22,583 nucleotides of DNA, from IMG/VR virus record IMGVR_UViG_3300025655_000316, positions 1 to 22,583 of that record. One strand, given 5' to 3'. This DNA is from a virus. Positions within the stretch are counted from its first letter, which is position 1. Each line of letters starts with the position of its first letter. Made by a program: the position numbers and the translations under genes. The notes under the pieces were generated by a model. It searched no databases, had not been told where the DNA came from, and saw only the letters and a list, made by a program, of their open reading frames with translations. Of the stretch, positions 1,856 through 18,583 are shown piece after piece.

Positions 1856-1858
1856 CAC

Positions 1859-2273: not shown

Positions 2274-2283
2274 CGCCTTGCAG

Positions 2284-3384: not shown

Positions 3385-3386
3385 AA

Positions 3387-3796: not shown

Positions 3797-4016
3797 GTTG
3801 CCTCCAGTTATTAGTTTGAGAATTGAACTAGAGCGACCCCATACGGTACAAAGGAGGGGTCAAGCCTTTCACCAGTCGGCCGGCAACTCACCCGAGTTAC
3901 AAGCGTTCCGTACCTTTCAAGCAATGGTAGGGCTCATGTCGGTAAGGGCCATTGCTTTGAATAAAAAGGGCGGGTTGAAGAGAGGTTGGTAGTAAGCAAC
4001 CCGCCAAACGGAGTAT
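3797..4016. other. 220-bp non-coding region rich in inverted repeats
   Basis: No convincing gene is present between the leftward operon head and the nuclease gene. Besides the terminator at 3963-4005, it holds a 9-bp perfect inverted repeat (AAGCAATGG 3919-3927 with CCATTGCTT 3949-3957), an AACTC/GAGTT hairpin near 3882-3900, and a GACCCC/GGGGTC pair near 3835-3860. The leftward promoter for the downstream operon should lie here, but I see no clear -35/-10 pair. A rightward open frame spanning it is judged spurious. Confidence 0.5.
3963..4005 (-). terminator. Rho-independent terminator after the nuclease gene
   Basis: Read leftward, a perfect 9-bp GC-rich stem (GGCGGGTTG pairing with CAACCCGCC, at 3997-4005 and 3969-3977) with a 19-base loop is followed by CTTTTT. 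It begins 11 bases after the nuclease stop codon, so it should end that transcript and separate it from the leftward operon below. Confidence 0.8.
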
Positions 4017-4874
4017 TTATCCTACAGAGTGTTCACAATCGCCTGTCTTCTTAACCCATTTGTTGCTGTGTTCTTTCTTTCCGTATGGACAGAACATGCA
4101 ACTGGATTTAGATGGCTTAGGTTTGAACTCTGTATCACTCGTTAATCTTAATGCGCGGTCATTGAAGTTCTTTGCGAATGCCAACGCTTGATGTGCTCGG
4201 TAAGTCTGACTTGCCAGTTCATTCAAGTCAAGGTACCAAAGCTCAGTATGAATCGTCTCAACCTGTGGATATTTCATTGCTGTCGCTAATGCGTACAATG
4301 TCATTTGTTGCCCATGCTTGAGTTCATTACCGTAACGCTTTCCTGTTTTGTAATCCACGATTGTAACTTCTGTGTCTGATAGCCATACGAACGCATCAGC
4401 AATAACCCGAAGCCAAATATTATCGTAATCATCAGGAGCACAGGCAGCCCAGTCCTCAGTGAAGCACCACATCTCTTCAGTGGTGACTGCATCTGGATGG
4501 AGTTCCTTGAGTGTTTCAAGCTCCGGTTTGAAATGTAAAAGCTCCGCAGCCAGCTCATCTGTTTCACCTTTGACGTATTGTTCAGCAGCAGCATGGATTC
4601 TTGACCCCCTGTCGTTTGCAAATTCAGTCTGTCCGGGCTGTAACTCTCTTGGCAACTCCTCAATTTTATCAATATATTGAAGCTTTGCTTTGTAAGGACA
4701 CCCCTCGTAGAGTGTAAGACGTGAAAACGACCATGCTTTGAGCATTTTGACTCTCTTTTCTTCATTGAAATAGGAGTCATCATAATAGTCTTCATTGTCA
4801 TTCGTGTAAAATGGTGTTATTCCTTGTGATTGGTTGTTATTGATTGTTGTTTTGTTGTGATTTAAGTTTGACAT
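4017..4874 (-). CDS. PD-(D/E)XK nuclease with Fe-S-type cysteines (RecB/Cas4-like), 285 aa
   Basis: The frame opens with ATG at 4874 and an Asn-rich tail of about 42 residues, then the conserved domain begins at KAWSFSRLTLYEGCP. Family landmarks are RGSRIH (H94), IADAF (D160), IVDYKTGK (D174, K176) and QMTLY (Q190, Y194), the PD-(D/E)XK catalytic set. Cys59 near the start and Cys259, Cys262 and Cys280 near the end match the four-cysteine Fe-S arrangement of AddB, Cas4 and related exonucleases. In phages such proteins process DNA ends, aid recombination or degrade host DNA. It is divergent from the wHTH gene and has its own terminator. The start is uncertain because the ribosome site (CGGAAA) is weak. 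Confidence 0.88.
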   Translation of the reverse strand: MSNLNHNKTTINNNQSQGITPFYTNDNEDYYDDSYFNEEKRVKMLKAWSFSRLTLYEGCPYKAKLQYIDKIEELPRELQPGQTEFANDRGSRIHAAAEQYVKGETDELAAELLHFKPELETLKELHPDAVTTEEMWCFTEDWAACAPDDYDNIWLRVIADAFVWLSDTEVTIVDYKTGKRYGNELKHGQQMTLYALATAMKYPQVETIHTELWYLDLNELASQTYRAHQALAFAKNFNDRALRLTSDTEFKPKPSKSSCMFCPYGKKEHSNKWVKKTGDCEHSVG

Positions 4875-4899
4875 CTTAAATTTCCGAGTCTATGCTTCG

Positions 4900-4925
4900 T
4901 TTTACTCGCTACTGCGAGCAAAACC
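4900..4925. promoter_or_regulatory. Candidate operator: 11-bp inverted repeat between divergent genes
   Basis: GTTTTACTCGC at 4900-4910 pairs with GCGAGCAAAAC at 4915-4925 around a TACT spacer, with a single A/C mismatch in each arm. It lies in the 77-base gap between the nuclease start (leftward) and the wHTH start (rightward). It is well placed for a dimeric repressor, perhaps the wHTH protein itself, to control both directions. No clear promoter boxes accompany it. Confidence 0.5.
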
Positions 4926-4951
4926 ATTACAACAAACCATCGAGGATTAAA

Positions 4952-5170
4952 ATGATAATGACGTCGCAGGAAGCTGCTGATTACTTACGCATCTCTGAAG
5001 GAACTCTCCGCAGATCACGTTCAACTGGTTATTTATTTGGATTTCCTACTCCCCCGTATCGTAAATTAGGTCATATTGTCCGTTATCGTAAGCCTGATAT
5101 TGATGCTTGGATGGCATTAACTACTGAAGGCACGTCGGCTGATGTCCAAATCTGCGGTTACGGGAGATGA
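4952..5170 (+). CDS. AlpA/excisionase-like winged-helix DNA-binding protein, 72 aa
   Basis: I choose the ATG at 4952, which has GAGG seven bases upstream. An earlier ATG at 4892 would add 20 residues across the inverted repeat and has no ribosome site. The protein reads MTSQEAADYLRISEGTLRRSRSTGYL, then RKLGHIVRYRKPDIDAWMA, the standard pattern of the small MerR-like wHTH family (helix-turn-helix 17) used by excisionases and AlpA regulators. It likely binds DNA at the nearby inverted repeat or at the origin. Its stop overlaps the ATG of the primase-helicase frame (ATGA), so the two are coupled. No integrase is seen, which favours a regulatory or replication role over excision. Confidence 0.88.
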   Translation: MIMTSQEAADYLRISEGTLRRSRSTGYLFGFPTPPYRKLGHIVRYRKPDIDAWMALTTEGTSADVQICGYGR

Positions 5171-5172
5171 GC

Positions 5173-7794
5173 ATGAAATTCAGTCAATTTATTGGTACTG
5201 AGTATGAATCACTCATCCTACCTGCTATTCCGCCCAATGCTGAGATCTCACCGCACAGTAGTATCGACCCTAAACAGTGTGGCAAAATACCGGGCCGCTT
5301 GACCGCATCTGGTTGGACCGGTCTTTCTAAATGGTCTGAGCATATCACTACAGCCGCTGATTTAACGGCTTGGGATGCGTATCAGCGTGCCAATATGTCA
5401 GCGAATTGTAAAGATCAACTCGTTGGCCTCGATGTGGACTCCGAAAACGAAGAGTTTACTGAGATCACACTCTTTGTGTTCGCTATGTTCATCGGGGCTA
5501 ATCATCCCAAGCGTATCCGTTCTAATTCTGGACGTATCCTGCTCGTATGCCGAGGGGATGTCCGGAAGCGCGCGCTTAAGTTCATCAATGAACTCACTGG
5601 CGAAATTGTCGGGATCGACATCCTTGGGAACGGTTCGCAGTTCATCATCTGGGGCGAACATCCGTCTGGCGGCCGGTACGAATGGCCCAATGGGACGCTT
5701 GACGACTATATGTTTGATGATCTCGTCCTTGTCGATAACGATATGATCGATCGCATTATCAATGAGTTGATTAAGCAGGCGTCCGCTAAGGGATGGGTAA
5801 TACAGTCCGGTGTTGGTACAGTAGTACATGGCGATTTCCAGATAGATGTCAAAGACTACGAACCACGCGATGAACATATCGCGTTGCCTAAGCTTAAATC
5901 TGTTATTCCCACAGATATATACCAATTGATCCTTAAAGGTGTCGAAAAGGGTCGTCGTAGTGAGGCTCAAGCCTCGGTTATTTCCAATTTGGTTGCTTTG
6001 GGGTTAGATGATAACTCCATTGCTGACATTTTTTTCAACCCTGCTCATGGCATTGGAGAAAAAGCCCGTGAACAAGGTGTTGAATGGACGATGAGGGACA
6101 TTGCGCGTATGCGCGGTAAATTTCGCCCATCTAATGATGTTGAAACAAAGCAGTCGGAAGTCTCGGTCGAATCGGTGGTTGAACTTAGTGAAGACCTCCT
6201 CGAAGGACGCATCAAATGCTTGGAAAAGGATGCTAAAATCGCCGAAATAGAGGCTATTTGTGTCGATCTTGCCAAGCTACGCAATCAGCCTGTAATCAAC
6301 AGACTGGTACGTTTGATCAAGAAGCAAACAGGCACATCGCTTAAAGATATTAATGAGATTGTTAGTGCTCACTTACCTAAGAAGGCTGATGGCGAGGATG
6401 TGTCGGATAATCCGGCACATGAAGTTACACATCATCAGCTTGCTTTGCGTCATCTCCAAACAGTCGGTAATCTCGGTGTACAGGAGATTTGTTGTGGTGG
6501 TTCACTGTATCGATTGGGCGATGATTTCGTTTGGCAAATGCGCCCTGTCGCTAAAGTTGTGGTCGAGATGTGTCAGTCGATGGACGGCATGGACAATTTC
6601 TCAAGGCGTAGCGATTACGGTTCTGTTCAGAAGCAATATTTGGATATTATTGCTAATGAAGAGTTCTTTGCTAATCGCCCGCACGGTATAGCGTACGAAG
6701 ATTCGTATTTTTACTCTGTCAACGTGGATACGTTGACAGGAACCAAAAAACTGTCGTGTGTGCCACTTGAAGGTAAGCACTGTGTCACTTCAAAGGGTCG
6801 TTTTGCCCCAGATGGGTCAAAAAAGCCCAGAAAGATCTTCAAATTCTTAATCAAAGCACTCAATAATGGCGATTTGAAGGGGCAAGTACGCCAATTGCGT
6901 GAAGTATACGCGATGGTGCTGCTTGGGCATCTGAACTACATGCAGTTGTGCTCTTTCTTTTTTGGTGCACCCGCGACCGGTAAATCCGTGCTGAATGAGC
7001 TGTTGTGTGCTCCATTTGCAAAAGAGTCGGTAGTCTCGATCCAACCGTACTTGCTCACCCAAGAGTATTATGCGATTCAGCTCAAAGATGCGGTGGTTAA
7101 CCAGATCACAGAGCTTGAAAGCGATAAAGTTTGGGGTGAAGCGTTTAAATCATTCGTGGATTTGTCGCTTGTGACAGGTCGCCATCCATCTGGACGCCCT
7201 GTTTCGTTTGTTTCGTTTGCGGCTTTCTTCATTAATGCGAATTCGTTGCCACAGTTTAAAGATAAAACTGAAGCAATGATCCGTAGGCTCGCATTTTTTG
7301 AGTTTCTCAATGTTATTCCTGTTGAGGAGCGTAATCCGCACCTGATTAATGAGTTGATTGAGGAACTGCCATATTTCATGTACTGGTGCTTGGAAGTTGC
7401 AGATGAGGTACTCGCTCGTGGGTACGTTCAACTGAGTAAAACGTGTATTCGTCTCCAAGGCGTTGCGCAAGAGCGTAGCAATAATGTACTCGATTTCCTC
7501 GCCGACGTTGATGTGATAGAGAAGAATGACCACATGGTTATTCCTATTAAAACGGTGTACGAGATATATAAAGGAAGATGCAAAAGTAATGGTATCAAGC
7601 CGTATGGCAAGAATAACTTTGTGGGCATCTTATCTGATCACGCTGAAGTCGCTCGCTCATTTCACAGGGAGAAGAATCCAAATGGCAATCTTTGCTTGCG
7701 TGGATACGCACTTTCTCCCACAGCTTTTCAGGACTGTGGTATCTCAAATCTGAGCCTTCCAAACCAATTTTCCCTGATTATGTCAGTTGGATAA
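5173..7794 (+). CDS. Primase-polymerase / SF3 helicase replication protein, 873 aa
   Basis: Two ATGs are possible. The one at 5173 has GGGAG six bases upstream and is preferred over that at 5167, which overlaps the wHTH stop. The N-terminal 200 residues show GLDVDSE and later GIDILGNGSQFIIWGEHPSGGRYEW, matching the bifunctional primase-polymerase (AEP) fold. Around residues 596-605 is a Walker A loop (GAPATGKSV). Around 685-710 are FINANSLPQFKDKTEAMIRRL, the SF3/D5-like motif C and arginine finger. The enzyme would unwind and prime the phage origin. Length is typical of fused prim-pol-helicases of phages and satellites. The region just downstream is an origin candidate. Confidence 0.9.
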   Translation: MKFSQFIGTEYESLILPAIPPNAEISPHSSIDPKQCGKIPGRLTASGWTGLSKWSEHITTAADLTAWDAYQRANMSANCKDQLVGLDVDSENEEFTEITLFVFAMFIGANHPKRIRSNSGRILLVCRGDVRKRALKFINELTGEIVGIDILGNGSQFIIWGEHPSGGRYEWPNGTLDDYMFDDLVLVDNDMIDRIINELIKQASAKGWVIQSGVGTVVHGDFQIDVKDYEPRDEHIALPKLKSVIPTDIYQLILKGVEKGRRSEAQASVISNLVALGLDDNSIADIFFNPAHGIGEKAREQGVEWTMRDIARMRGKFRPSNDVETKQSEVSVESVVELSEDLLEGRIKCLEKDAKIAEIEAICVDLAKLRNQPVINRLVRLIKKQTGTSLKDINEIVSAHLPKKADGEDVSDNPAHEVTHHQLALRHLQTVGNLGVQEICCGGSLYRLGDDFVWQMRPVAKVVVEMCQSMDGMDNFSRRSDYGSVQKQYLDIIANEEFFANRPHGIAYEDSYFYSVNVDTLTGTKKLSCVPLEGKHCVTSKGRFAPDGSKKPRKIFKFLIKALNNGDLKGQVRQLREVYAMVLLGHLNYMQLCSFFFGAPATGKSVLNELLCAPFAKESVVSIQPYLLTQEYYAIQLKDAVVNQITELESDKVWGEAFKSFVDLSLVTGRHPSGRPVSFVSFAAFFINANSLPQFKDKTEAMIRRLAFFEFLNVIPVEERNPHLINELIEELPYFMYWCLEVADEVLARGYVQLSKTCIRLQGVAQERSNNVLDFLADVDVIEKNDHMVIPIKTVYEIYKGRCKSNGIKPYGKNNFVGILSDHAEVARSFHREKNPNGNLCLRGYALSPTAFQDCGISNLSLPNQFSLIMSVG

Positions 7795-8134: not shown

Positions 8135-8164
8135 AAAAAAGGGGTATGGCTTTCGCCATACCCC
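8135..8164 (-). terminator. Rho-independent terminator of the second leftward operon
   Basis: Read leftward, a perfect 10-bp stem (GGGGTATGGC pairing with GCCATACCCC, at 8155-8164 and 8141-8150) carries a GAAA tetraloop and is followed by TTTTTT. It lies 23 bases after the stop of the 298-residue gene and prevents leftward transcripts from entering the origin-like region. Confidence 0.93.
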
Positions 8165-8187
8165 CAAGAGCTAACGGAGATTAGCTA

Positions 8188-9084
8188 TTAATACATCTCA
8201 ATCCCTTCACGCTCGTTAATTACCATACGCGCTGAGGTCTCGATGCTCTCTGTGAGCGACCGAACCAAGGTGTTGATGTGTTCTTCGAGCTTAGCCAAGC
8301 CAAACATAGCTGAGCGGGCTTTGAGATATTCACCTTGATACTGCTGTGCAAGAAGCGGGTTGATACCCTCGGCCATCTTGTACCGATTCTTGGCCTCTTC
8401 CATAAGATTGAAGGCCTTGAATTTGTGACCGAGCTTTTCAGCGACCTTGCTCTTGCTAGGCGGATTACCGATCTTGAGGCTGAATTTGTTTACATAACGG
8501 AGCAATTCCTGCTCAGTCATTTCAACATAATCCGATGCGACCGGGATCACGAGCAGATTGGCTAGCTCTGCCTGATTCTTGAGAGCATAGGCTGCTGTGC
8601 GCTCAGCCCGATCAATCGCTTGACGGGCACGTTTGGCATGATGCAACTGCTCTGCATGAATCAGCTCATCGACTGTGGTATTGAGCAATGCTGCCTGCTC
8701 TTCCAGATCCTCGACATTTGAATCTTCCATCTCATCAATCTGAGCTGATGGCTTCTGGAAGAATTTGATCATATCGGCTGCATCTGCATTCAGATCTGAT
8801 TTCTGAGCTACTCCATCGAACATGTGGTAAAGCTGACGTGCTGTGGTAAGACGTCTTTCTGTGTCCTTAACTTTCTCAGACCGTTCCTCAGAAGGAGGAA
8901 GAGTTCCAAGATAAGAAAGGTACGCGGAATTGCGAATGACATCATTACACGCGCTATATTTGCCACCAATGGCCAAGAATTCGCCATATGTTGCGTCCTC
9001 CATAGTAGGATGATAGATAGAAGCAGCCTCTTCAATGATGGTTTCGAGGTCAGTTACACGTACGTTATCAATTTTCTCAGACAT
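8188..9084 (-). CDS. Hypothetical helical protein, 298 aa
   Basis: The start is the ATG at 9084 (MSEKIDNVRV), with GGAGA seven bases upstream; four upstream codons lack a ribosome site. The protein is almost wholly helical and charged, with helices such as EDLEEQAALLNTTVDELIHAEQLHHAKRARQAIDRAERTAAYAL and EEHINTLVRSLTESIETSARMVI. No signal peptide, transmembrane segment, cysteine cluster or nucleotide-binding loop is seen. It is the last gene of the operon, directly before the terminator, and is preceded by the first copy of the repeated leader element. It could be a structural or regulatory early protein; no family is recognised. Confidence 0.85.
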   Translation of the reverse strand: MSEKIDNVRVTDLETIIEEAASIYHPTMEDATYGEFLAIGGKYSACNDVIRNSAYLSYLGTLPPSEERSEKVKDTERRLTTARQLYHMFDGVAQKSDLNADAADMIKFFQKPSAQIDEMEDSNVEDLEEQAALLNTTVDELIHAEQLHHAKRARQAIDRAERTAAYALKNQAELANLLVIPVASDYVEMTEQELLRYVNKFSLKIGNPPSKSKVAEKLGHKFKAFNLMEEAKNRYKMAEGINPLLAQQYQGEYLKARSAMFGLAKLEEHINTLVRSLTESIETSARMVINEREGIEMY

Positions 9085-9106
9085 AATAGTCTCCAATTTG
9101 AGTTAA

Positions 9107-9166
9107 CCGTCCAAAGTTGACGGCATAACAAGTTACCTAAGCGGCGCAAGCCGCAACCGCTTAGGT
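9107..9166 (-). promoter_or_regulatory. Structured leader element, copy 1
   Basis: Hairpin 1 is GCGGC (9141-9145) with GCCGC (9150-9154) and a four-base loop. It lies inside a perfect 10-bp inverted repeat, ACCTAAGCGG (9135-9144) with CCGCTTAGGT (9157-9166), which offers an alternative fold. Read leftward, TTAGGTAACT follows, then hairpin 2, CCGTC with GACGG (9107-9111 and 9119-9123). The gene start is 46 bases beyond the GGTAACT tract. See copies 2-5. Confidence 0.75.
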
Positions 9167-9175
9167 GGTTGTCGA

Positions 9176-9340
9176 TTAATGGTCGAATTCAAAACACTCG
9201 CATTCTGTGTAACGAAGTACGAACTCTTTGGCTTTTTCACTCTTAGCCATTGCTACTTCATACATCGTCTCAGCAATATGGAACATCTCTGTTTCATTGC
9301 CTGTCAGGATTGCGATTTCATTTGCATCATCTGCTGTCAT
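9176..9340 (-). CDS. Small hypothetical protein, 54 aa
   Basis: A short leftward frame starts with ATG at 9340 and ends with TAA at 9178-9176. It has the same AACGGAGATAA ribosome-binding site used by several other genes of this operon, and it begins 13 bases after the previous stop. The product is acidic and helical (MTADDANEIAILTGNETEMF, then AMAKSEKAKEFVLRYTECECFEFDH), ending with a CEC motif. No family is recognised. It exactly fills the space between its neighbour and leader copy 1, which supports it as a real gene. Confidence 0.8.
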   Translation of the reverse strand: MTADDANEIAILTGNETEMFHIAETMYEVAMAKSEKAKEFVLRYTECECFEFDH

Positions 9341-9353
9341 ACTTATCTCCGTT

Positions 9354-9605
9354 TTATCTACCTGTGATCAGGCGCGTTGTGTGTAATAATGCTGATAACA
9401 TCAGACCACCAAAGATGGCAGTCATAGCTACTGAGGCCTTGCCCATATAGATGGACGCAGCAAATAGCCCGAATGAGAAGAACATATCGATAAATGCAAT
9501 ACCTTTCTTACCCATGCGTGTTGCTATTCCGAGGGTTAGCAGGACTATGTAGATCACAAGAGCGAGACCTACGCCTGACAATATACTGTCCATTAAGCTG
9601 AACAT
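9354..9605 (-). CDS. Small three-helix membrane protein, 83 aa
   Basis: The ATG at 9605 has one of the best ribosome sites in the window (GGAGGTGAT, five bases away) inside the end of the preceding gene. Three hydrophobic segments are evident, about residues 8-28, 36-54 and 57-75, separated by short charged turns (TRMGKKG and GKA), and the C-terminus is basic (TRLITGR). It is an inner-membrane protein. Size and three-helix topology are similar to class I holins, but there is no lysis gene beside it and it sits in an early operon, so an envelope-modifying or exclusion role is just as possible. Confidence 0.8.
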   Translation of the reverse strand: MFSLMDSILSGVGLALVIYIVLLTLGIATRMGKKGIAFIDMFFSFGLFAASIYMGKASVAMTAIFGGLMLSALLHTTRLITGR

Positions 9606-9973
9606 GGTAAATCACCTCCAAAGATCTTATCGTTTGAGAGATATGTTGTTTCCCAATTAAAGAACACATCAGGGTCTTTTGATGCAAACAAATGACAATG
9701 CACTTTGACACCTGCGATGTCACTGAGCATACGATCACTAACGATTTGAAGATCCTGAAGTTGAGCGACATACATTTGTGATGTTTTCTTATCATCACTC
9801 TTTGTCATGCTTAGGCTATGTTGGATTTTGGTGTAATACTCTTGCATTTGTTCATACACAGCATTGAGGCCTTCAGCCACTGCCGCTGCTTTGGTATGAT
9901 TCATGTATACACCGATGATTGATACACCCATCCCATTCACAGTATGGGTTACTGCTGTTACTTTTATGCTCAT
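9593..9973 (-). CDS. Hypothetical protein, 126 aa
   Basis: The ATG at 9973 follows an AACGGAGAAAAGTT ribosome site and is preceded by leader copy 2. The N-terminus is beta-like (SIKVTAVTHTVNGMGVSIIGVYMNHTKAAAVAEGL), the middle is a helix (LNAVYEQMQEYYTKIQHSL, then QLQDLQIVSDRMLSDI), and the end is again mixed with an aromatic stretch (DVFFNWETTYL). No recognised motif. It overlaps the membrane-protein gene by 13 bases and contributes its strong ribosome site, so both are likely produced together. Confidence 0.82.
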   Translation of the reverse strand: MSIKVTAVTHTVNGMGVSIIGVYMNHTKAAAVAEGLNAVYEQMQEYYTKIQHSLSMTKSDDKKTSQMYVAQLQDLQIVSDRMLSDIAGVKVHCHLFASKDPDVFFNWETTYLSNDKIFGGDLPCSA

Positions 9974-9991
9974 AACTTTTCTCCGTTATTA

Positions 9992-10048
9992 GTCGCCCAG
10001 TTGACGACATAACAAGTTACCTAGGCGGCGTAAGCCGCACACCTAGGT
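9992..10048 (-). promoter_or_regulatory. Structured leader element, copy 2
   Basis: Hairpin 1 is GCGGC (10025-10029) with GCCGC (10034-10038). Outside it ACCTAGG (10019-10025) pairs with CCTAGGT (10042-10048), where copy 1 has ACCTAA/TTAGGT, a compensatory change. Read leftward, CTAGGTAACTTGTTATG follows, then hairpin 2 (GTCG 10005-10008 reading leftward with CGAC 9992-9995). The start codon of the 126-residue gene is 41 bases past GGTAACT. Confidence 0.75.
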
Positions 10049-10064
10049 AGTTGTTAGTTATGCT

Positions 10065-10451
10065 CTATTCAAATACTTCCGCTTTTGATAGATCCAGCGG
10101 AATAAAACATGACCTTGCTGTTAAAAAGCTTGTTGGGTCAAAATACTCTGATTCAAACTCATTGATCAGATCATTTGACTGTACTGGCTTTTTACCTTCA
10201 GCAAGTGACACAGTAATATGGTAACGATTACGATTACCGTTATAGAACAGTTGTGAACCATTACGCACGAATGTAACGACATAACAATGCACACCGTTCT
10301 TTGCCAGTTCTGTAGTGGCGATTGCTTGCCATCCATCACTGATAAGGTCTGAGGTTATTGTGTCTGTACCAAACTTCTCTGTAACATGATGCGCAATAGG
10401 GCGTGCATACACAGGTTTTAGAGATAAGTTGTTTTTGTATGCTGTATACAT
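10065..10451 (-). CDS. Putative 2H phosphoesterase-like protein, 128 aa
   Basis: The ATG at 10451 (MYTAYKNN) has GGAG nine bases upstream and begins one base after the previous stop; a frame extension of five residues inside the upstream gene is less likely. Two H-x-T motifs are present: PIAHHVTEKFG (H22, T24) and NRYHITVSLAEGKKPVQSNDL (H78, T80). The pairing of HxT motifs and the 'HITVS..GxKPVxSN' wording resemble 2H phosphoesterases and RNA-repair-like 2H domains. Family members cleave 2',3'-cyclic or other cyclic phosphodiesters, and phage Acb1 degrades cyclic nucleotides of CBASS defence. The motif spacing here (56 residues) is short for the family and identity needs a profile search. Confidence 0.6.
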   Translation of the reverse strand: MYTAYKNNLSLKPVYARPIAHHVTEKFGTDTITSDLISDGWQAIATTELAKNGVHCYVVTFVRNGSQLFYNGNRNRYHITVSLAEGKKPVQSNDLINEFESEYFDPTSFLTARSCFIPLDLSKAEVFE

Positions 10452-10452
10452 C

Positions 10453-11097
10453 TTAGATTTCTCCATTCAACTGGGCTAAACGGTACTGAGCTTCACGACT
10501 CTCTGGTCCCCAATACTCGTTCTGTCTCATGGTATAGACGTTGTAATCATCACTTTTATAAGGGATCTGTTCGTCACCATTACAGCTATCGTCATCAGGC
10601 CAGATCTTACGTTCAAAATCATAATCGCCACTGATGACGTAATACACCTCATCACCGAACTTGGTCATGGGGTATATCTCAAGCGATGGGAAGTAGCTTT
10701 TAACTAATTCTTCTGCTGCTTCCAGTGAGATGTAGTAGTAAGAACGATTGATGATGACTTCAACCAGATGCTCGGATGGGACATACTCTGCATTGATCAG
10801 ACCTACACGACCAGACCAAGGGCCAATGAGATCTTTAGTTGATCCATCTTCCATTGTGATACGGTATGTACGACCGCCAAAACCGTTACCGGGTTTGTTG
10901 TACGAGAAGAACGCTCCGAACATACCCGCTCTGCCCACGTACATAGTTCCGTCATTTAATTCCAGCTTTTTAAACCGATAATCCTCGCTTTTAGGCAAGA
11001 ACTCTTGATCTACTTCCATTTCGATTGTTGGACCCCATGAGTCCTTGTGATGGGCATTGATGTCAGCTCTTAAACTAATTGTTTTGATTTTAAACAT
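10453..11097 (-). CDS. Hypothetical protein, 214 aa
   Basis: The start is the ATG at 11097 (MFKIKTISLR), with the operon's usual AACGGAGATTA ribosome site and leader copy 3 upstream; the frame extends 26 codons further but without a site and through the leader. The sequence is rich in beta-like segments, aromatic residues and acid (KLELNDGTMYVGRAGMFGAFFSY, then YRITMEDGSTKDLIGPWSGRVG, then YYISLEAAEELVKSYFPSL). No membrane segment, cysteine cluster or catalytic signature is recognised. Its stop is directly followed by the 2H-like gene and supplies that gene's ribosome site. Confidence 0.83.
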   Translation of the reverse strand: MFKIKTISLRADINAHHKDSWGPTIEMEVDQEFLPKSEDYRFKKLELNDGTMYVGRAGMFGAFFSYNKPGNGFGGRTYRITMEDGSTKDLIGPWSGRVGLINAEYVPSEHLVEVIINRSYYYISLEAAEELVKSYFPSLEIYPMTKFGDEVYYVISGDYDFERKIWPDDDSCNGDEQIPYKSDDYNVYTMRQNEYWGPESREAQYRLAQLNGEI

Positions 11098-11117
11098 GGT
11101 ATTAATCTCCGTTATAA

Positions 11118-11165
11118 TCGCCACACATTGACGACAAACGAAGTTACCTAAGCGGCGTAAGCCGC
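11118..11165 (-). promoter_or_regulatory. Structured leader element, copy 3
   Basis: Hairpin 1 is GCGGC (11152-11156) with GCCGC (11161-11165), same stem as copy 2. Read leftward, TTAGGTAACTTCG follows, then a weak hairpin 2 (TCG/CGA at 11132-11134 and 11118-11120). The outer stem of copies 1, 2 and 4 is not formed here. The start codon is 44 bases past GGTAACT. It lies 79 bases downstream of an intact terminator, so its gene may need its own promoter or read-through. Confidence 0.65.
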
Positions 11166-11244
11166 ACTTCTCCACATCTTAAAAGTGATCTTTAGCCAAC
11201 ATGACTGCTGAAGGTGTTCAGGGATGTATTCAGTGGACTACATT

Positions 11245-11265
11245 AAAAAGGGGGCCGAAGCCCCC
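11245..11265 (-). terminator. Rho-independent terminator with UUCG loop inside the operon
   Basis: Read leftward, GGGGGC (11265-11260) and GCCCCC (11255-11250) form a perfect stem closed by a TTCG loop and followed by TTTTT. It is placed just after the 62-residue gene. Because leader copy 3 and its gene lie downstream, the terminator must be partial or a new promoter lies between 11166 and 11244, where I see no clear one. Confidence 0.92.
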
Positions 11266-11271
11266 TCTCTG

Positions 11272-11460
11272 TTATAAATCGCCGCGCTTTTTAGCGTCCG
11301 CGATCACTGCTTTACGGAATTGCTCATACTTCTCACGCTCGAGCTTCATCTTTTCCTCGGTTATGATTTTCTGGACTTCACGTTCCATATCCTCTGCTTG
11401 TGACTGCTCTACATAGCTTGACATGGCTGCGATTGTGGCTTTACGTAATTTCTTAAACAT
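11272..11460 (-). CDS. Small charged coiled-coil protein, 62 aa
   Basis: The ATG at 11460 follows AACGGAGAAAAGCC, and leader copy 4 is upstream. The protein is basic at the N-terminus (MFKKLRKATIAAM) and then one long charged helix (EDMEREVQKIITEEKMKLEREKYEQFRKAVIADAKKRG). No fold or family is recognised. It ends six bases before the UUCG-loop terminator, so it is probably made in larger amounts than genes further downstream. It could be a nucleic-acid or protein-binding regulator, but that is speculation. Confidence 0.8.
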   Translation of the reverse strand: MFKKLRKATIAAMSSYVEQSQAEDMEREVQKIITEEKMKLEREKYEQFRKAVIADAKKRGDL

Positions 11461-11479
11461 GGCTTTTCTCCGTTAATTA

Positions 11480-11536
11480 CCATCGACGTTGATGGCATGC
11501 GTAGTTACCTAAGGGGCGTAAGCCCCCCAAGTAACT
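11480..11536 (-). promoter_or_regulatory. Structured leader element, copy 4
   Basis: Hairpin 1 is GGGGC (11513-11517) with GCCCC (11522-11526), a compensatory change from GCGGC/GCCGC. An outer AGTTAC (11503-11508) pairs with GTAACT (11531-11536). Read leftward, TTAGGTAACT follows, then hairpin 2 (CCATC with GATGG, 11480-11484 and 11491-11495), also changed on both sides relative to copy 1. The start codon is 42 bases past GGTAACT. Confidence 0.75.
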
Positions 11537-11553
11537 GTGTGGCGTGAGGTTAA

Positions 11554-11865
11554 TTATGCAAACTGCATCTTTTTCAGTGCGTGCCAAGCTTCCGCTCTAG
11601 TTGCGTAGCTATGTACCACGACCATTTTGCTAGCTTTTCCGCGGCAGATGTTACAGCCCTTGACGTAGAGAGCTGAGTTCTGGTACTTGCCCGGTGCTGA
11701 TTTAGGCGCTGCTTTAGGCGCAACTGGGTTCGATACCTTGGCCAGTATGCGGCCTAGACGTTCAGATGCTTCTTGCAGCGGGTATGGCCCTTTTGTTGCG
11801 CCGGACTCTGTGTTCATGATGAAGAACTGTGCTTTGCGACCGTCTTGTACGAGTGTGTATGACAT
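11554..11865 (-). CDS. Hypothetical protein with CxxC pair, 103 aa
   Basis: The ATG at 11865 follows AACGGAGATTACATC and leader copy 5, and it is the first gene of the leftward operon. The N-terminal part is beta-like (SYTLVQDGRKAQFFIMNTESG), the middle is an Ala/Pro/Lys-rich linker (NPVAPKAAPKSAPGKY), and the C-terminal part has GCNICRGKASKMVVVHSYATRAEAWHAL with one CxxC. A single pair is not enough for a zinc site unless the protein dimerises. Two short domains joined by a linker is a reasonable reading. No family recognised. Confidence 0.82.
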   Translation of the reverse strand: MSYTLVQDGRKAQFFIMNTESGATKGPYPLQEASERLGRILAKVSNPVAPKAAPKSAPGKYQNSALYVKGCNICRGKASKMVVVHSYATRAEAWHALKKMQFA

Positions 11866-11889
11866 GATGTAATCTCCGTTGTGTAATGT

Positions 11890-11931
11890 GGCGATGTTGC
11901 CGTGATAAGTTACCTATGCGCCGTGAGGCGC
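11890..11931 (-). promoter_or_regulatory. Structured leader element, copy 5
   Basis: Hairpin 1 is GCGCC (11918-11922) with GGCGC (11927-11931), a third compensated stem variant. Its loop is also changed (GTGA on the plus strand, TCAC leftward). Read leftward, ATAGGTAACTT follows, then hairpin 2 (GGC/GCC, 11890-11892 and 11899-11901). The start codon is 42 bases past GGTAACT. It is the copy closest to the divergent control region. Confidence 0.7.
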
Positions 11932-12037
11932 TACCTCCCCTACCCGAATTCGGAAACCGAAACCGAACCGCCCCCCTTCCTGAGAGGAGGGGGGAGGGGT
12001 AGATCACCACCCCAGCCACAACTTTTTTCAATTTTCA

Positions 12038-12070
12038 AATTTATAAAAATTTATAAAAATTTATAAAAAT
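12038..12070. repeat. 10-bp tandem AT-rich repeat, three copies
   Basis: The unit ATTTATAAAA recurs three times with an exact 10-bp period just upstream of the late-operon promoter candidate. One repeat per helical turn would place the A-tracts on one face, giving intrinsic curvature or an UP-element-like contact for RNA polymerase. It could equally be a binding array for a late activator. Confidence 0.65.
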
Positions 12071-12079
12071 TTTTGAATG

Positions 12080-12109
12080 TTGTAAAAATTCGGCAACATG
12101 AGCTAAACT
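12080..12109 (+). promoter_or_regulatory. Candidate sigma-70-like promoter for the late operon
   Basis: TTGTAA (12080-12085) and TAAACT (12104-12109) are separated by 18 bases, a moderate match to host promoter boxes. The -35 overlaps an inverted repeat (ATGTTG 12077-12082 with CAACAT 12094-12099). Transcription would begin near 12116, leaving almost no leader before the terminase ATG at 12118, so a different start or a phage-specific polymerase remains possible. Confidence 0.4.
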
Positions 12110-12117
12110 GCGGAATT

Positions 12118-12600
12118 ATGGGATTATTAGCTCAACTCGTAGACATCGATTTCAACATTACCGACGAACAAAAGCGGTTGGTAGAGGGTCTTTTTGCCGG
12201 TTTAACCAAAAAACAGGCGTTAGCAAGGGCCGGTTTCCGTGAATCGATGAACATTAATCGCTATTTCCGTGATAATCCGCATCTTGAAGACTATGCTAAG
12301 CACTTGCAGTCGGAAGAACGGAAGAAATGGCGCGTATCACGCGAGCAGGTGACCCAAGGATTGATGGAAGCAATACAAGATGCAAAAATGCTTGAAGAAC
12401 CTAATACTCAGATCAATGGGTGGAGAGAATTGGGCCGATTGCACGGGCTTTATGCACCTGAAGAGAAAAAAGTGACCCTCTCGGCTGAAAAATCCGAGCA
12501 GATGCGCCAAATCGAAGAAGCCTCTGTGGAAGAATTGCTTGATATGACTGGACACGAGATGATCGAGGGCGATTTCGAGCTAATTTCCGATGTCACATAA
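12118..12600 (+). CDS. Terminase small subunit, 160 aa
   Basis: I choose the ATG at 12118; the frame is open 15 codons further to a TTG, but that would run through the promoter-like region. The upstream GCGGAA is a weak ribosome site. Residues 14-65 form a helix-turn-helix-like segment (ITDEQKRLVEGLFAGLTKKQALARAGF, then NINRYFRDNPHLEDYA). Residues 76-118 match the classic small-terminase pattern (VTQGLMEAIQDAKML, then QINGWRELGRLHGLYAPEEKKV). The protein recognises the packaging site on phage DNA and activates the large subunit. It overlaps the large-terminase gene by 11 bases. Confidence 0.88.
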   Translation: MGLLAQLVDIDFNITDEQKRLVEGLFAGLTKKQALARAGFRESMNINRYFRDNPHLEDYAKHLQSEERKKWRVSREQVTQGLMEAIQDAKMLEEPNTQINGWRELGRLHGLYAPEEKKVTLSAEKSEQMRQIEEASVEELLDMTGHEMIEGDFELISDVT

Positions 12601-14611
12601 AAACTTGCCCACTAGAAAGTGGGGGATGACGCCGACTGAGCTAAAGAAAATGCGTTTTTGCGGCTCGTGCGGCAACCTGATTCATAGAAAATCGTTCAGT
12701 TCGAGCGGCGCAGCCCGCTGTGTGAATTGTCAGAACGATGAGATCCCGACCAAACCCGAAAATATTAATAAAGAGCGCCAACGTGTCCGGTATATTAAGG
12801 ACAAAGAAGCGGCGCGAAATAATGGCGTAGCAGGTGGAAAGGCCGCAGGCCAGATTCAGAAAGAGCGGGCCGAGGACAAAAAGAAAGAGTGGCCTGACAA
12901 AGCGCCTAAGAATGTGGAGTTGGAGAAACGCCGTGCCCGACATGCGAAGGAGCCTATTATTGGGCAGACCGCTAGTCGGGATATTGTGAAAGCTGAGCTT
13001 GCAAACCGTGCTTTAGCTAGAAAAAAGTTAATATTTTTCATTCTGCGCAACTTTCCTGAGTACCAACCGGGGTGGGTGCATAACCTTATTTGTTCAAAAT
13101 TAGAAAAATTTAGCCAAGATGTTATTGACAGAAAAGCCCCCCGTCTCATGTTGTTTGTGCCGCCACGGCACGGAAAGTCGGAAATCGCTAGTAAGATGTT
13201 TCCTGCGTGGCATCTCGGTCGCGCCCCTAAGCATGAGATTATCGCAGCGAGTTATGGTGTCTCCCTCCCTATGGGCTTTTCTCGCAAAATTAAGGAAATG
13301 ATGAAAACCCCAGCGTACACCAATGTGTTCGCTGAATGCCGCCTGCATAAAGATGCTCAAGCCACTGAAGGATGGCTAACGGATAAAGGAGGTGGCTATG
13401 TGCCTGCGGGTGTCGGCGGTTCTATTACGGGTAAGGGTGCGCATGTTCTTATTATTGACGACCCTGTTAAGGATGCTGATGAAGCGGATTCTGAAACAAT
13501 CCGTGAGCGAAATTGGGATTGGTACGGGTCAACAGCACGTACACGTCTTGCTCCGGGTGGAGGAATCCTTGTTATCCAGACTCGATGGCATGATGATGAC
13601 CTTAGCGGGAAGCTCATCCACCAAATGCAAGAAGACCTCAGAGCGGTTGATGAGGAGTTGGAAGAAGCACTTGAGCGCGGAGCTGATGAGTCGGAAATCT
13701 CGAAGATTCGGCGCAAATACGACGAGATCGAACAGTGGGAAATAATATGCTTACCGGCATTGGCGGAACAGGAGGAGTGGTTCAACCCACATAATGGGCA
13801 GATTGAGTACAACCGATCTACCCCGGAGTCCAGATTTCTGCGCCATGTTGGCGATGCGCTCCACCCTGCCCGGTTTGATGAGCTAAGCTTACGTAAGATG
13901 AGGCGGACGATGGCCAAGCGCCATTGGTCTGCGTTGATGCAACAAAACCCGGTCCCTGATGATGGCGATATATTTACAAAGGATTCTTTTAGGTTTATAC
14001 CTCACCGTCCCCGTCTTAACAATCATCATGTGTATATTGCTTGGGATTTAGCCATCGGCCAGAAGCAGCAGAACGACTGGACTGTGGGCATGGTTGGTGC
14101 GATGAACGAAATGGGGTTTTTAATTATTTACGACATGATTAGGGTGAAAACGAATGAACTCGCAAAACTCATATACGACACCTCTGTGCTATACAAAAAT
14201 CACCTCCAGCAAATTGGTCTGGAACGCGGTCAAATCCAGATGTCCATCATGCCATCTCTCCAAAGACTGTTCGACGAGAAAAAGTTTTACCCAAGCTTCA
14301 ACGAAGACTTAAAGCCGGTGACGGACAAAGTGGCGAGGGCTAGGGTAGCGCAGGGAATGGTACAGCACGGAAAGGTGCTATTGCCGGAAGATCAGCCTTG
14401 GGTAGAGACTTTTCTGGCAGAACTGCTAAGATTCCCCAATGGATTACACGATGACGCGGTTGACGCGTTTTCTTGGTTATGCCGCATGGTTGAAGGTGTA
14501 TCGCCACCGCGAGCTTCAGCGCAGAAACAAAAACTGAAAAGTTGGAAAGATAAATTAGGTCAGTACATTGATGCTGATGGACTTAATTCGGGTGGAGCAA
14601 TGTCAGCATGA
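12590..14611 (+). CDS. Terminase large subunit, 673 aa
   Basis: This is the DNA-packaging motor. Residues 191-198 (PPRHGKSE) are the Walker A motif and 286-292 (HVLIIDDP region) Walker B of the ATPase. D486 (AWDLAIG) and HDDAVDA (620-626) mark the RNase H-like nuclease that cuts the concatemer. The first 50 residues carry CGSC (24-27) and CVNC (44-47), a zinc-finger-like extension, followed by a long basic segment. A charged helical insert (about 345-382) lies between ATPase and nuclease. The protein is longer than the usual 450-600 residues because of these additions. The ATG at 12590 overlaps the small subunit; an ATG at 12626 is possible but would still include the finger. Confidence 0.95.
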   Translation: MSHKNLPTRKWGMTPTELKKMRFCGSCGNLIHRKSFSSSGAARCVNCQNDEIPTKPENINKERQRVRYIKDKEAARNNGVAGGKAAGQIQKERAEDKKKEWPDKAPKNVELEKRRARHAKEPIIGQTASRDIVKAELANRALARKKLIFFILRNFPEYQPGWVHNLICSKLEKFSQDVIDRKAPRLMLFVPPRHGKSEIASKMFPAWHLGRAPKHEIIAASYGVSLPMGFSRKIKEMMKTPAYTNVFAECRLHKDAQATEGWLTDKGGGYVPAGVGGSITGKGAHVLIIDDPVKDADEADSETIRERNWDWYGSTARTRLAPGGGILVIQTRWHDDDLSGKLIHQMQEDLRAVDEELEEALERGADESEISKIRRKYDEIEQWEIICLPALAEQEEWFNPHNGQIEYNRSTPESRFLRHVGDALHPARFDELSLRKMRRTMAKRHWSALMQQNPVPDDGDIFTKDSFRFIPHRPRLNNHHVYIAWDLAIGQKQQNDWTVGMVGAMNEMGFLIIYDMIRVKTNELAKLIYDTSVLYKNHLQQIGLERGQIQMSIMPSLQRLFDEKKFYPSFNEDLKPVTDKVARARVAQGMVQHGKVLLPEDQPWVETFLAELLRFPNGLHDDAVDAFSWLCRMVEGVSPPRASAQKQKLKSWKDKLGQYIDADGLNSGGAMSA

Positions 14612-16791
14612 GCGACATTAGTATTGTTAAAGAGCAGTATGAGCGGTACATCTATGCGCGTGATAACGGGCATACAGATTTTTTACAAAAGGCTGAAAAA
14701 TGTGATGCCTTTTATAATGGGGAGCAGTGGAACGCGGCTGATAAAGCCAAACTGGCTCGTCAACGCCGTCCGGCTCTAACGTTGAACAAGCTCCTCCCCA
14801 GTGTTGCCGCGATTCAGGGGCAGCAGTTATCAAATAGATCAGATGTGAGTTTCCGCCCAAAAGACGGTGGAAACCCAGAAACAGCAATGGCGCTCGACAA
14901 GCTGTGGTTACATATTTCTCAAACCAATCACCTTGATGAGCTGGAATCGGATGTTTTCACTGACGGTATCATTACCTCTCGTGGGTTTTACGACGTACGT
15001 ATGGACTTTAGCGATAATATATACGGAGATGTTCGTATTAAGTTGCTTAATCCTTATAACGTCATCGTTGACCCGGATGCTGAAGAATATGACCCAAAAG
15101 CATGGAAAGAAGCATGGTTAACTAAGTGGTTGAGTCACGACGACATTGAGCGCCTTTATGGTAAAGACGTATCGAAGCAGCTCAAAGGTAAAATCCAATC
15201 ACGCTACGAAATCGGATATGACTTTGTTGACAAGCGCTTCGGGAGCTTCGGTGGCAGCGAACGGAGGGTTGGTGACGAATTCGACCCTGATGCGACACAC
15301 AGGCGGCGATTCAGGGTTTTAGAGCGTCAGCATAGAACGAAGTCTATCCGACCCCATTTTGTTGATATTATTACTGGCGAGACTCGTGTGATCCCGGAAG
15401 GTTGGGGTCCAGAGAAGATTGCAATGGCGGTCCAGTATTACAATTTGCAGGTTATCAAACGCCCGTATGAAGAGATTCATTGGACGGTAACGATCGATGA
15501 TGTGTTGGCGCACAACGAGAAGTCTCCGTATAGCGACTTCACCATCGTGCCTTACTTCCCCTTTTTCCGCCACGGTACAACAATCGGGCTGGTTGAGAAC
15601 ATGATCGACCCGCAGGAGTTGTACAACAAAACCAAATCGCAAGAGTTACATGTGATCAACTCGACTGCTAACGGTGGTTGGCAGGGCGAAGAAGGTCAAT
15701 TGGCTAATATGTCCGAAGAGGAGTTGGAACATCGTGGCGCGGAAACCGGGCTTGTCATCATGCGTAAGAAGGGAACCCTTCCGCTTGAGAAAATCCAGCC
15801 AAACCAGATCCCTTCTGGACTCGATCGAATCGGCTATATGGCGGCTGAAGACCTTAAAGAAATCTCAATGGCCTCAGACTCCCTCAGAGGATTCGACAGA
15901 GAAGACGTAGCCGCGAAAGCGATTATGACCAAGCAGGCGATGGGCGCATCAAACTTCGCCATGCCATTGCACAATTTACAGCGCACTCGCGGCTTGTTGG
16001 CCTATCGGGTACTGGATCTGGTACAGCAGTACTACACTGAAGAGCGCGCAATTACCGTGACCAAATCGGATCTGGCGGCTCAGCCAGAGACCCTTACTGT
16101 GAATCAGATGTCGCCAGAGGGCGAGATTCTGAACAACTTGCAGGCCGGTGAGTACGAGGTTGTGTTGACCACTGTTCCGGCTCGCAACACTTTTGAAGAG
16201 TCTCAGTTCCAGCAAGCTAAAGAACTACGTGAACTAGGTATTATGATTCCGGACGACATTCTCATCGAGAACTCAACCCTGTATCGTAAACACGAGATTG
16301 CCAAGCGTCTGAAAGAAGCAAATGGCGGTGGTGAGGCTTCGCCAGAACAGCAACAGATGATGCAACTTGAGCTTCAGATCAAGCAGCTTGAAGCGCAGAA
16401 GATGGCGGCTGAGGCCAAGAAGATCGAGGCGGATGCGGTGCTCTCCCTTGTGCGTGCGCAGGACATTGCTGAGGGTGAAGAAGGTGATGGCGGCATGATG
16501 GAAATGCGCAAGATGCAGAACGAGAACGAACGGTTCTTGGCTCAGCACGAAGCGGATATGAAGAAACTCGACGCAGAGCTTGGGTATAAGTATGCCGAGC
16601 TGGATCAGCGTAGAGCGGAATCTGATCACAAAGCAAACATTGATAAAGCCAATGTGTTGACCAGTATCGAGTCAGCCCGCCGCAAAGCGGATAATGACGA
16701 TGCAAAATCCCAAATCGCCGCCCACCAAGCACAAACCCAACGTAAGGCTGCGGAACGCCCCGCACCGAAACCCGCAGGAGGGAACAAATAA
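14608..16791 (+). CDS. P22-type portal protein, 727 aa
   Basis: The ATG overlaps the terminase stop as ATGA. The length equals that of P22 portal (about 725 residues). Family features are an N-terminal EQYERYIYARDNGHTDFLQKAEKCDAFYNGEQW, and the central PYFPFFRHGTTIGLVENMIDPQELYN...NST (about residues 312-352), typical of the family. The last 150 residues (about 583-720) are a very long charged helix (QLELQIKQLEAQKMAAEAKKIEA onward), like the barrel/tail of P22 portals. Twelve copies would form the DNA channel at one capsid vertex, binding the terminase during filling and later the tail. Confidence 0.93.
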   Translation: MSDISIVKEQYERYIYARDNGHTDFLQKAEKCDAFYNGEQWNAADKAKLARQRRPALTLNKLLPSVAAIQGQQLSNRSDVSFRPKDGGNPETAMALDKLWLHISQTNHLDELESDVFTDGIITSRGFYDVRMDFSDNIYGDVRIKLLNPYNVIVDPDAEEYDPKAWKEAWLTKWLSHDDIERLYGKDVSKQLKGKIQSRYEIGYDFVDKRFGSFGGSERRVGDEFDPDATHRRRFRVLERQHRTKSIRPHFVDIITGETRVIPEGWGPEKIAMAVQYYNLQVIKRPYEEIHWTVTIDDVLAHNEKSPYSDFTIVPYFPFFRHGTTIGLVENMIDPQELYNKTKSQELHVINSTANGGWQGEEGQLANMSEEELEHRGAETGLVIMRKKGTLPLEKIQPNQIPSGLDRIGYMAAEDLKEISMASDSLRGFDREDVAAKAIMTKQAMGASNFAMPLHNLQRTRGLLAYRVLDLVQQYYTEERAITVTKSDLAAQPETLTVNQMSPEGEILNNLQAGEYEVVLTTVPARNTFEESQFQQAKELRELGIMIPDDILIENSTLYRKHEIAKRLKEANGGGEASPEQQQMMQLELQIKQLEAQKMAAEAKKIEADAVLSLVRAQDIAEGEEGDGGMMEMRKMQNENERFLAQHEADMKKLDAELGYKYAELDQRRAESDHKANIDKANVLTSIESARRKADNDDAKSQIAAHQAQTQRKAAERPAPKPAGGNK

Positions 16792-17483
16792 TGGCAAATG
16801 GTTATGACGAGAATAAGCGACGTGCCGCAGAGGGTCGTAGTTTCCAGCGTAGGAGTGGTTTTCCAAAAATAAATTCGGGTAATGCCAGCGCGAGCGGATC
16901 AATTGATAACCCGAACGCACCGGAAACTGCCCAAACACGCAATGCTAAAGCGAGAGCGTCAAACAATAGGCTTAATAAACCTACTGCAATGAAAACAGGT
17001 CCAAGCGAAGCAATGGGTGCGCGCAAAGCTCGGTCAGGTAGGATGAATATTATCAAAGCAAATGAAGCCACTGGTGAATATTCTAAAAATAGGCCAAGTC
17101 CGCGCACTCCTAAGCCGAAGGGTCGCGCTGCGCGTGCTACAGCACCCGGTATGCTGAATACTGATATGAAGAACTACGCGGCACAGAACAAAGCGGCGGC
17201 TCGGGCAAAGATGGTACAAAACGCTAAAGCCGGTGCTTTGAAAGGCCTGCGCGGTAATCTGATCGGTATACCGCTCGGTGCAGCAATCGGTGTTGCTGTA
17301 GGCCAAGGCAGACGTACACCAACAACTAAAGGCCAGATGGGCCGTGTTAATAAGCTTCCCCCCAAGCCGACGACTGCGCCGATGGTGAGTCCTCAAGTAC
17401 AGGCCCGCCAGCAGGCTTTGATTAATGCAAACCCCGGCATGGCCTCTTTGGCAGAGCAGGATTTAAACAAACGTAAAATGTAA
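16791..17483 (+). CDS. Basic, low-complexity head-module protein, 230 aa
   Basis: The ATG overlaps the portal stop (TAATG) and has AGGAGG nine bases upstream. The product is very basic and rich in Ala, Asn, Arg, Lys and Pro, with little predicted order. An exception is a hydrophobic glycine-rich segment at about 153-173 (GLRGNLIGIPLGAAIGVAVG) that could insert in a membrane. Such features suit a DNA-associated internal protein or an ejected protein. Its slot between portal and scaffold supports a virion or assembly role. No family is recognised. Confidence 0.82.
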   Translation: MANGYDENKRRAAEGRSFQRRSGFPKINSGNASASGSIDNPNAPETAQTRNAKARASNNRLNKPTAMKTGPSEAMGARKARSGRMNIIKANEATGEYSKNRPSPRTPKPKGRAARATAPGMLNTDMKNYAAQNKAAARAKMVQNAKAGALKGLRGNLIGIPLGAAIGVAVGQGRRTPTTKGQMGRVNKLPPKPTTAPMVSPQVQARQQALINANPGMASLAEQDLNKRKM

Positions 17484-17503
17484 CCCTAATAGGAGCCACC
17501 CCT

Positions 17504-18549: not shown

Positions 18550-18583
18550 AGGTAAAAAAGGCGGCGGCGGCAAGAAGTGCTAA
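18542..18583 (+). CDS. Thirteen-residue Lys/Gly-rich peptide (leader or mini-gene)
   Basis: A 13-codon frame (MAKGKKGGGGKKC) follows a perfect AGGAGG at nine bases. Its TAA stop is immediately followed by the ATG of the next gene (TAAATG), whose own ribosome site is poor. It is either a short functional peptide with a terminal cysteine, or a coupling leader that loads ribosomes for the next gene. The strength of the ribosome site argues that ribosomes really initiate here. Confidence 0.6.
   Translation: MAKGKKGGGGKKC

Follow-up and report, generated by a model that had tools for sequence, protein, structure and literature searches.

A repeated two-hairpin leader with compensatory base changes upstream of five genes in a single phage genome

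The virus record IMGVR_UViG_3300025655_000316 of IMG/VR, from an uncultivated phage, was analysed over its positions 1 to 22,583, a stretch of 22,583 bases that we refer to as the window. Matches to PHROGs identify the small and large terminase subunits, a portal, a major head protein and a spanin, all encoded rightward within 12073-22017, as well as an excisionase/helix-turn-helix protein and a primase, also rightward (4892-7794), and a leftward exonuclease (4017-4874). Adjoining the terminase genes, and divergent from terS, is a leftward block of genes at 8188-11865. This block carries the element that is the subject of this report, a two-hairpin sequence present in five copies (c1 to c5) on the minus strand, each lying 41-46 nt ahead of an ATG.

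All five copies share one anatomy. The first hairpin, P1, consists of 5 bp closed by a loop of the form TYRC and aligns without gaps; it is followed by one base, the invariant nine-nucleotide tract TAGGTAACT, a spacer of 6-7 nt, a second hairpin, P2, of 3-6 bp with a loop beginning AAY, and finally a GGAG, giving the layout GCGGC-TTAC-GCCGC-N-TAGGTAACT-N6-7-P2-N6-12-GGAG-N6-9-ATG. Counted from the foot of P1 through the Shine-Dalgarno GGAG, the conserved unit is about 60 nt long. Inspection of the sequence bears out an earlier prediction, made from the sequence alone, as to where the five copies lie and on which strand, and that GGTAACT stands 41-46 bases from the start codon (the distances are 46, 41, 44, 42 and 42 nt in c1 to c5). 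The linker between the hairpins, described there as nearly invariant, does not vary at all in TAGGTAACT, which the window contains exactly five times, each time within a copy. A relaxed core, TYRC-N6-TAGGTAACT-N9-RTCAA, matches four copies and gave 0 matches in each of 100 shuffles. Table 1 collects the coordinates of the copies and of the genes that surround them.

Table 1. Leader copies, genes and terminator-like hairpins of the leftward block
Feature	Position	Strand	Details
Copy c1	9091-9154	minus	P1 9154-9150/9145-9141 (GCGGC/GCCGC), loop TTGC; TAGGTAACT 9139-9131; P2 9123-9119/9111-9107, loop AACTTTG; GGAG 9094-9091; ATG 9084; optional outer stem ACCTAA/TTAGGT, extending up to 9166
Copy c2	9981-10038	minus	P1 10038-10034/10029-10025 (GCGGC/GCCGC), loop TTAC; TAGGTAACT 10023-10015; P2 10008-10003/9997-9992, loop AACTG; GGAG 9984-9981; ATG 9973
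Copy c3	11107-11165	minus	P1 11165-11161/11156-11152 (GCGGC/GCCGC), loop TTAC; TAGGTAACT 11150-11142; P2 11135-11130/11122-11117, with G-U pairs; GGAG 11110-11107; ATG 11097
Copy c4	11468-11526	minus	P1 11526-11522/11517-11513 (GGGGC/GCCCC), loop TTAC; TAGGTAACT 11511-11503; P2 11495-11491/11484-11480 (CCATC/GATGG); GGAG 11471-11468; ATG 11460
Copy c5	11874-11931	minus	P1 11931-11927/11922-11918 (GCGCC/GGCGC), loop TCAC; TAGGTAACT 11916-11908; P2 11901-11899/11892-11890 (GGC/GCC); GGAG 11877-11874; ATG 11865
103-aa gene	11554-11865	minus	c5-led; no family match; opens the leftward block, divergent from terS
62-aa charged protein gene	11272-11460	minus	c4-led
Terminator-like hairpin	11238-11264	minus	GGGGGCTTCGGCCCCC + TTTTT; between the c4-led gene and c3; placed on the other strand by the terminator scan
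214-aa gene	10453-11097	minus	c3-led; first gene past the terminator-like hairpin at 11264-11238
Gene without its own leader	10065-10451	minus	starts 1 nt after the 214-aa gene
126-aa gene	9593-9973	minus	c2-led
Gene without leader	9354-9605	minus	starts 13 nt inside the preceding 126-aa gene (13-nt overlap)
Gene without leader	9176-9340	minus	starts 13 nt after the preceding gene
298-aa gene	8188-9084	minus	c1-led
Terminator-like hairpin	8140-8165	minus	GGGGGTATGGCGAAAGCCATACCCC + T run; closes the leftward block

The copies have little in common outside the element. While the 24-nt core is 75-96% identical between copies, the 40 nt upstream are only 17-38% identical and the first 60 nt of coding sequence 20-48%. 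Thus conservation ends at the borders of the element, and since both the flanks and the gene starts are unrelated, the five copies are not the product of recent tandem gene duplications.

The evidence that a structure has been maintained comes from the pattern of base changes in the stems. In an alignment set by hand, all 50 of the 50 cells assigned to P1 and P2 are paired across the five copies, and RNAalifold returns -16.4, compared with -3.2 ± 2.0 in 1000 column shuffles that preserved gaps and conservation; the best shuffle reached -13.1, and none was as good as the real alignment. The gaps within P2 were placed in this alignment with the structure in mind, and we regard P1 and the test with a covariance model as the cleaner evidence. 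In the alignment produced by the covariance model, 48 of 48 cells (100%) are paired and five of the ten pairs have changed on both sides, as had been described in the original prediction for both stems. Of 500 shuffles of this alignment, 0 or 1 equalled it in pairing, in two-sided changes and in covariation score, and 37 equalled it in the number of pair types; control structures slid along the alignment leave only 33-58% of cells paired. P1, which is GCGGC/GCCGC in three copies, contributes two of the two-sided changes (C-G to G-C in c4 and G-C to C-G in c5); the replacements in P2 are C-G/U-A, G-C/A-U and U-A/G-C, together with U-G pairs in c2 and c3.

A covariance model built from c1, c2 and c4 alone recovers the two copies that were held out, c3 at 62.8 bits (E 6.3e-16) and c5 at 40.1 bits (E 1.1e-9). 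A search of the rest of the genome had been proposed in the original prediction; over the window, the three-copy model returned no sixth copy, the next match (16.4 bits) being the antisense strand of c4; nor are there copies in coding DNA anywhere in the window, a finding that would have counted against a leader. Taken singly, the leaders fold better than their dinucleotide shuffles (z -1.9 to -3.9). Compensatory change therefore keeps the helices within putative untranslated leaders, as is expected of a structured cis-regulatory RNA leader. The original prediction had allowed for either an RNA or a hairpin DNA element; that it is structured is upheld by the covariation, and because P2 contains G-U pairs in c2 and c3, we favour a two-hairpin RNA over a DNA hairpin. 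By inspection, we also considered a pseudoknot between the UUAC loop and GUAA of the linker, which is possible in c2-c4 but involves a wobble in c1 and a mismatch in c5. We have not adopted it because, among other defects, the tract fails to track the change in the loop.

Compensating outer stems had also been predicted, and here the outcome differs from copy to copy. In c2 the outer stem (ACCTAG/CTAGGT plus AACAA/TTGTT) is supported, with p about 0.01. In c4 it uses a different left arm, AGTTACTTGG (p 0.002-0.005), and lengthens P1 to 15 consecutive pairs including G-U (11536-11503). The outer stem of c1 is a perfect 6 bp across a 6-nt bulge with p 0.2-0.3, and c3 and c5 have none. We thus accept the outer stem for c2 and c4, regard it as plausible for c1, and do not treat it as general. 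Given that it can form in some copies, the TAGGTAACT tract, which the earlier description took to be single-stranded, is not necessarily so in every copy. The outer stem is missing from c5 and c3, which open transcription units (see below), and present in c4, c2 and c1, which lie inside an operon; as this division would arise by chance 1 time in 10 with five copies, the association is only suggestive.

The two terminator-like hairpins of Table 1 divide the block into two probable transcription units, 11865-11272 and 11097-8188. Within them, each cistron of the 8188-11865 block that is initiated independently carries the leader (5/5). The three genes beginning at 10451, 9605 and 9340 do lack the leader, as had been noted, and their absence from the set was originally taken to define a regulon. 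We find no support for such selectivity: these genes overlap or closely follow the gene before them, and are therefore probably translationally coupled to leader-bearing genes. Elsewhere in the window, the leftward genes at 173-4874 are without the leader, as judged both by the covariance model and by a scan of upstream regions. In a scan of 75 nt upstream of the other genes checked, the linker is absent (minus-strand genes), and so, on both strands, is any GC hairpin of 5 bp with a 4-nt loop, the sole exception being CTCGCAGTAGCGAG before the exonuclease gene.

On balance, we take the five elements to be copies of a cis-acting mRNA leader, specific to the phage, through which these genes would be controlled together after transcription, probably at translation. 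All five copies lie on the same strand as their gene, upstream of GGAG and with the 41-46 nt spacing, which we count in favour of their being leaders. Since the conserved sequence stops at the ribosome binding site and keeps its spacing from the start codon, the simplest explanation is that it acts on translation initiation or on message stability. Two hairpins whose loop types are fixed, separated by an invariant tract, resemble a binding site for a protein, and we favour control through a single RNA-binding protein. P1 (5 bp with its UYRC tetraloop), the invariant UAGGUAACU and P2 (loop AAY...) do not shift with respect to the ribosome binding site; transcribed as part of each leader, they would most likely be recognised as a single site by a trans-acting RNA-binding protein, of phage or host origin, and that protein would set the translation and/or stability of all five messages together. 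The upstream arm available in c2, c4 and perhaps c1 could fold the UAGGUAACU tract into a longer P1 stem, providing a switch or a processing site. What the data show are the elements, their structure, their position and their presence before each independent cistron of the block; transcription of the copies as leaders, the trans-acting factor and the direction of control are what we infer.

Several results weigh against this reading. We found no relative carrying the element in IMG/VR, GTDB species genomes, INPHARED, PLSDB or the relatives' own records, and identified no regulator gene; the analysis is limited to five copies, all from a single incomplete genome of 22.6 kb; and a promoter scan found none of the copies closely preceded by a sigma-70-like site on the minus strand. 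Nor is a simple route to repression supported, namely pairing of the linker with the Shine-Dalgarno sequence or the start. Minimum free energy structures show such pairing in c2-c4, but the energies of the linker-Shine-Dalgarno duplex do not significantly exceed those of shuffles (p 0.07-0.9) or those of the ribosome binding site regions of other genes, and we rejected it. A 7-nt stretch, AGGUAAC, resembles the 3' end of 16S rRNA, but over a length expected by chance.

A more specific version of leader-based control can be put forward tentatively, and we consider it possible rather than probable: the leader may found a new family of translational-operator RNA, in which one protein (phage or host) would read P1-UAGGUAACU-P2 and set translation of the block cistron by cistron, with the optional arm of the operon-internal copies hiding the tract and so acting as a switch.

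Of the competing explanations, the one that survives best, though we think it unlikely, is that these are hairpins for mRNA processing or stabilisation, with a host RNase cutting P1 or its longer forms, or the hairpin protecting the 5' end, such that each cistron has its own stable message. Early T7 messages are processed in this manner by RNase III, and the 15 consecutive pairs of c4 and the long interrupted stem of c2 would suit such an enzyme, as would the finding that the copies with longer stems (c1, c2 and c4) are operon-internal while c3 and c5, which begin units, have no extension. Yet the extension is missing from two copies and its left arm differs, and the core that is conserved (the 5-bp P1, TAGGTAACT and P2) falls short of the usual length of an RNase III substrate. 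A plain stability hairpin, for its part, needs neither an invariant 9-nt tract nor a constant spacing to the start codon.

That spacing is equally not required of a promoter, and we think it very unlikely that the element is a hairpin-type or duplex promoter for a phage RNA polymerase. The model here is the promoter of the N4 virion RNA polymerase, a small hairpin with covarying stems that is recognised in single-stranded DNA. Such a promoter would look much like what is seen here, a small GC hairpin that recurs before genes and has a short invariant tract at a set distance behind it, and a DNA hairpin would show covariation in its stem too. However, P2 covaries as well, and with G-U pairs; the N4 promoter hairpin has a loop of three bases, compared with four in P1; and no RNA polymerase is found among the PHROGs-matched genes of the window or the four largest open reading frames on the contig of one relative (G001), both contigs being incomplete.

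We give still less credence to a processive antitermination element of the put/nut kind, that is, RNA hairpins that modify RNA polymerase. Two hairpins flanking a conserved tract in leader RNA, and terminator-like hairpins between and after the genes of the block, are features such a system would share, but a transcript needs only one put/nut element, close to its 5' end, whereas the copies here also precede operon-internal cistrons, and the conserved spacing relates to the start codon. Lastly, a dispersed mobile or recombination cassette without a direct regulatory role (a module-shuffling linker, or a REP- or MITE-like hairpin) would account for a repeated intergenic hairpin unit between unrelated small genes with unrelated flanks, and T4-type phages do have comparable linker cassettes, but this is highly improbable for five copies in one orientation, at a near-constant distance from the ATG and with GGAG included, that have no conserved foot tetranucleotide and no target-site duplication that we could see, and whose compensatory changes imply that pairing is maintained.

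Searches for relatives returned nothing that bears the element itself. The window has no DNA-level relatives in INPHARED, and its terminase is nearest to those of KPP25-type Pseudomonas phages and Aeromonas phage phiA008 (37-41% identity). The exact-core pattern has seven matches in IMG/VR, all of them one unrelated conserved sequence; a relaxed pattern has 4 matches in IMG/VR and 17 in GTDB species genomes, none with a complete P1 (0-4 of 5 pairs), and we judged these to be chance. BLASTN of one copy against INPHARED phages and PLSDB plasmids gave no match, a TerL search of GTDB genomes gave none, and no relatives were found through the leader-linked proteins, the primase or the exonuclease. 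A covariance model (R1) run against the relatives' records produced nothing convincing, its best score, 17.3 bits in L026 and L027, falling on a bare hairpin. In these two records (L026:10483-10534 and L027:14676-14727, plus strand) the portal gene is immediately preceded by a P1-like hairpin, GGGGCTTGCGCCCC, and a GGAG separates the two; as the TAGGTAACT tract is absent, the hairpin is probably there by chance. The one near relative detected through TerL, L013 (TerL 71%, major capsid protein 80%), is a contig that ends just short of the position of c5.

More distant relatives have hairpin leaders of their own. In L015 (8522-9122), and likewise in L014, L016, L017, L018 and L029 (TerL about 49-51%), three copies of a different hairpin leader, AAGGACGCGGTAAGGCTGCGTCCTT, stand before consecutive leftward genes, each within about 90 nt before an ATG, and one copy is compensatorily changed (GGACGC/GCGTCC vs GGACAC/GTGTCC). 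This leader occupies the same place as ours, at leftward genes divergent from terS, but is one longer hairpin with a loop containing GGTRAGGCT, we see in it neither P2 nor TAGGTAACT, and R1 does not match it. Because two copies have a T-rich tail, the hairpin may be terminator-like. In Pseudomonas phage KPP25 (L058), GC hairpins with different stems precede several leftward genes beside the terminase genes, namely those ending at 17401, 17102, 16550 and 15682, and two of these share a GGA loop and 9-bp stems. A hairpin leader per cistron beside the terminase genes may be a recurring arrangement in this group, its sequence turning over fast, and some of the hairpins in relatives may simply be terminators.

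Three further features of the window deserve mention. Between terS and the leftward block, the intergenic DNA (11940-12073) contains a triple 10-bp A/T repeat, AAATTTATAA-like, at 12034-12073 and a G/C-rich stretch containing TTCGGTTTCGGTTTCCGAA; L015 has TTCGGTTTCCG in the same place, and the L013 contig ends there. This DNA could hold a cos/pac site or a regulatory region. Several stems are possible in a 220-nt intergenic region (3797-4016, minus strand) that precedes the gene at 3563-3796; it has no Rfam match and its fold is only marginally better than that of shuffles (z -1.5). Finally, a 224-aa protein (2284-2958, minus strand) that matches only PHROGs of unknown function contains a nucleotide-binding-like motif, GVGAIGSRVG, by eye suggestive of a ThiF/E1-like fold.

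A repeated leader with real compensatory change within a single phage genome is strong evidence, for which no relative is needed, of a selected RNA structure serving many genes, and the five natural variants make its rules of recognition directly testable. No described RNA family matches it. In line with the original remark that no described family like it came to mind, Rfam 15 has no match in the window at the gathering threshold, and hits with E up to 5 over 8900-12150 are sub-threshold noise. An intrinsic terminator was rejected, since in all copies P1 is followed by N-TAGGTAACT with no T run, and the terminator scan calls neither P1 nor P2. REP/REPIN sequences were likewise set aside: no two copies have the same bases ahead of P1 (GGTT, GTGT, AAGT, TTGG and GGTA), and the copies share a single orientation. 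The PeSL cassettes of T4-type phages, which combine a terminator-like hairpin with a conserved early promoter, are similar in being repeated, hairpin-bearing and intergenic between small genes, but the hairpin here has neither a T run nor a conserved promoter, and the conserved block reaches the Shine-Dalgarno sequence. The early region of T7 has about five RNase III sites, long irregular duplexes between early cistrons; the number and placement are alike, yet the conserved part here is a 5-bp hairpin and an invariant 9-nt tract at a fixed distance from the start codon.

The closest described analogue is the ESAS of Cluster K mycobacteriophages. These are repeated imperfect inverted repeats before the starts of unrelated genes, of unknown function but with a suspected role in translation (PMC3203893). 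Each is a 17-bp imperfect inverted repeat with a 4-13 bp spacer, found beside the 13-bp SAS, GGGATAGGAGCCC, and its authors leave open whether a host or a phage product binds (PMC3203893). As with our leader, ESAS is repeated within one phage genome directly upstream of the starts of unrelated genes, mostly in one orientation. The leader described here differs in having two short covarying hairpins, separated by the invariant TAGGTAACT, and a plain GGAG that stands apart; there is no SAS, GGGATAGGAGCCC, the five leaders instead reading AACGGAG or TTGGAG ahead of the ATG. The 17-bp repeat of ESAS, with its variable spacer, stands upstream of the start in a subset of genes; of our copies, c4 has an inverted repeat of 15 pairs, c2 a long interrupted one and c1 a bulged one, and c3 and c5 have none. 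The leader-linked proteins match no INPHARED phage. Given its different sequence, two-hairpin anatomy and invariant tract, we treat the leader as related in kind to ESAS but not as a member. Were it bound by one factor, it would constitute a cistron-by-cistron control system for a phage gene block, the kind of control suspected for ESAS-type leaders, the mechanism of which was left open by those authors.

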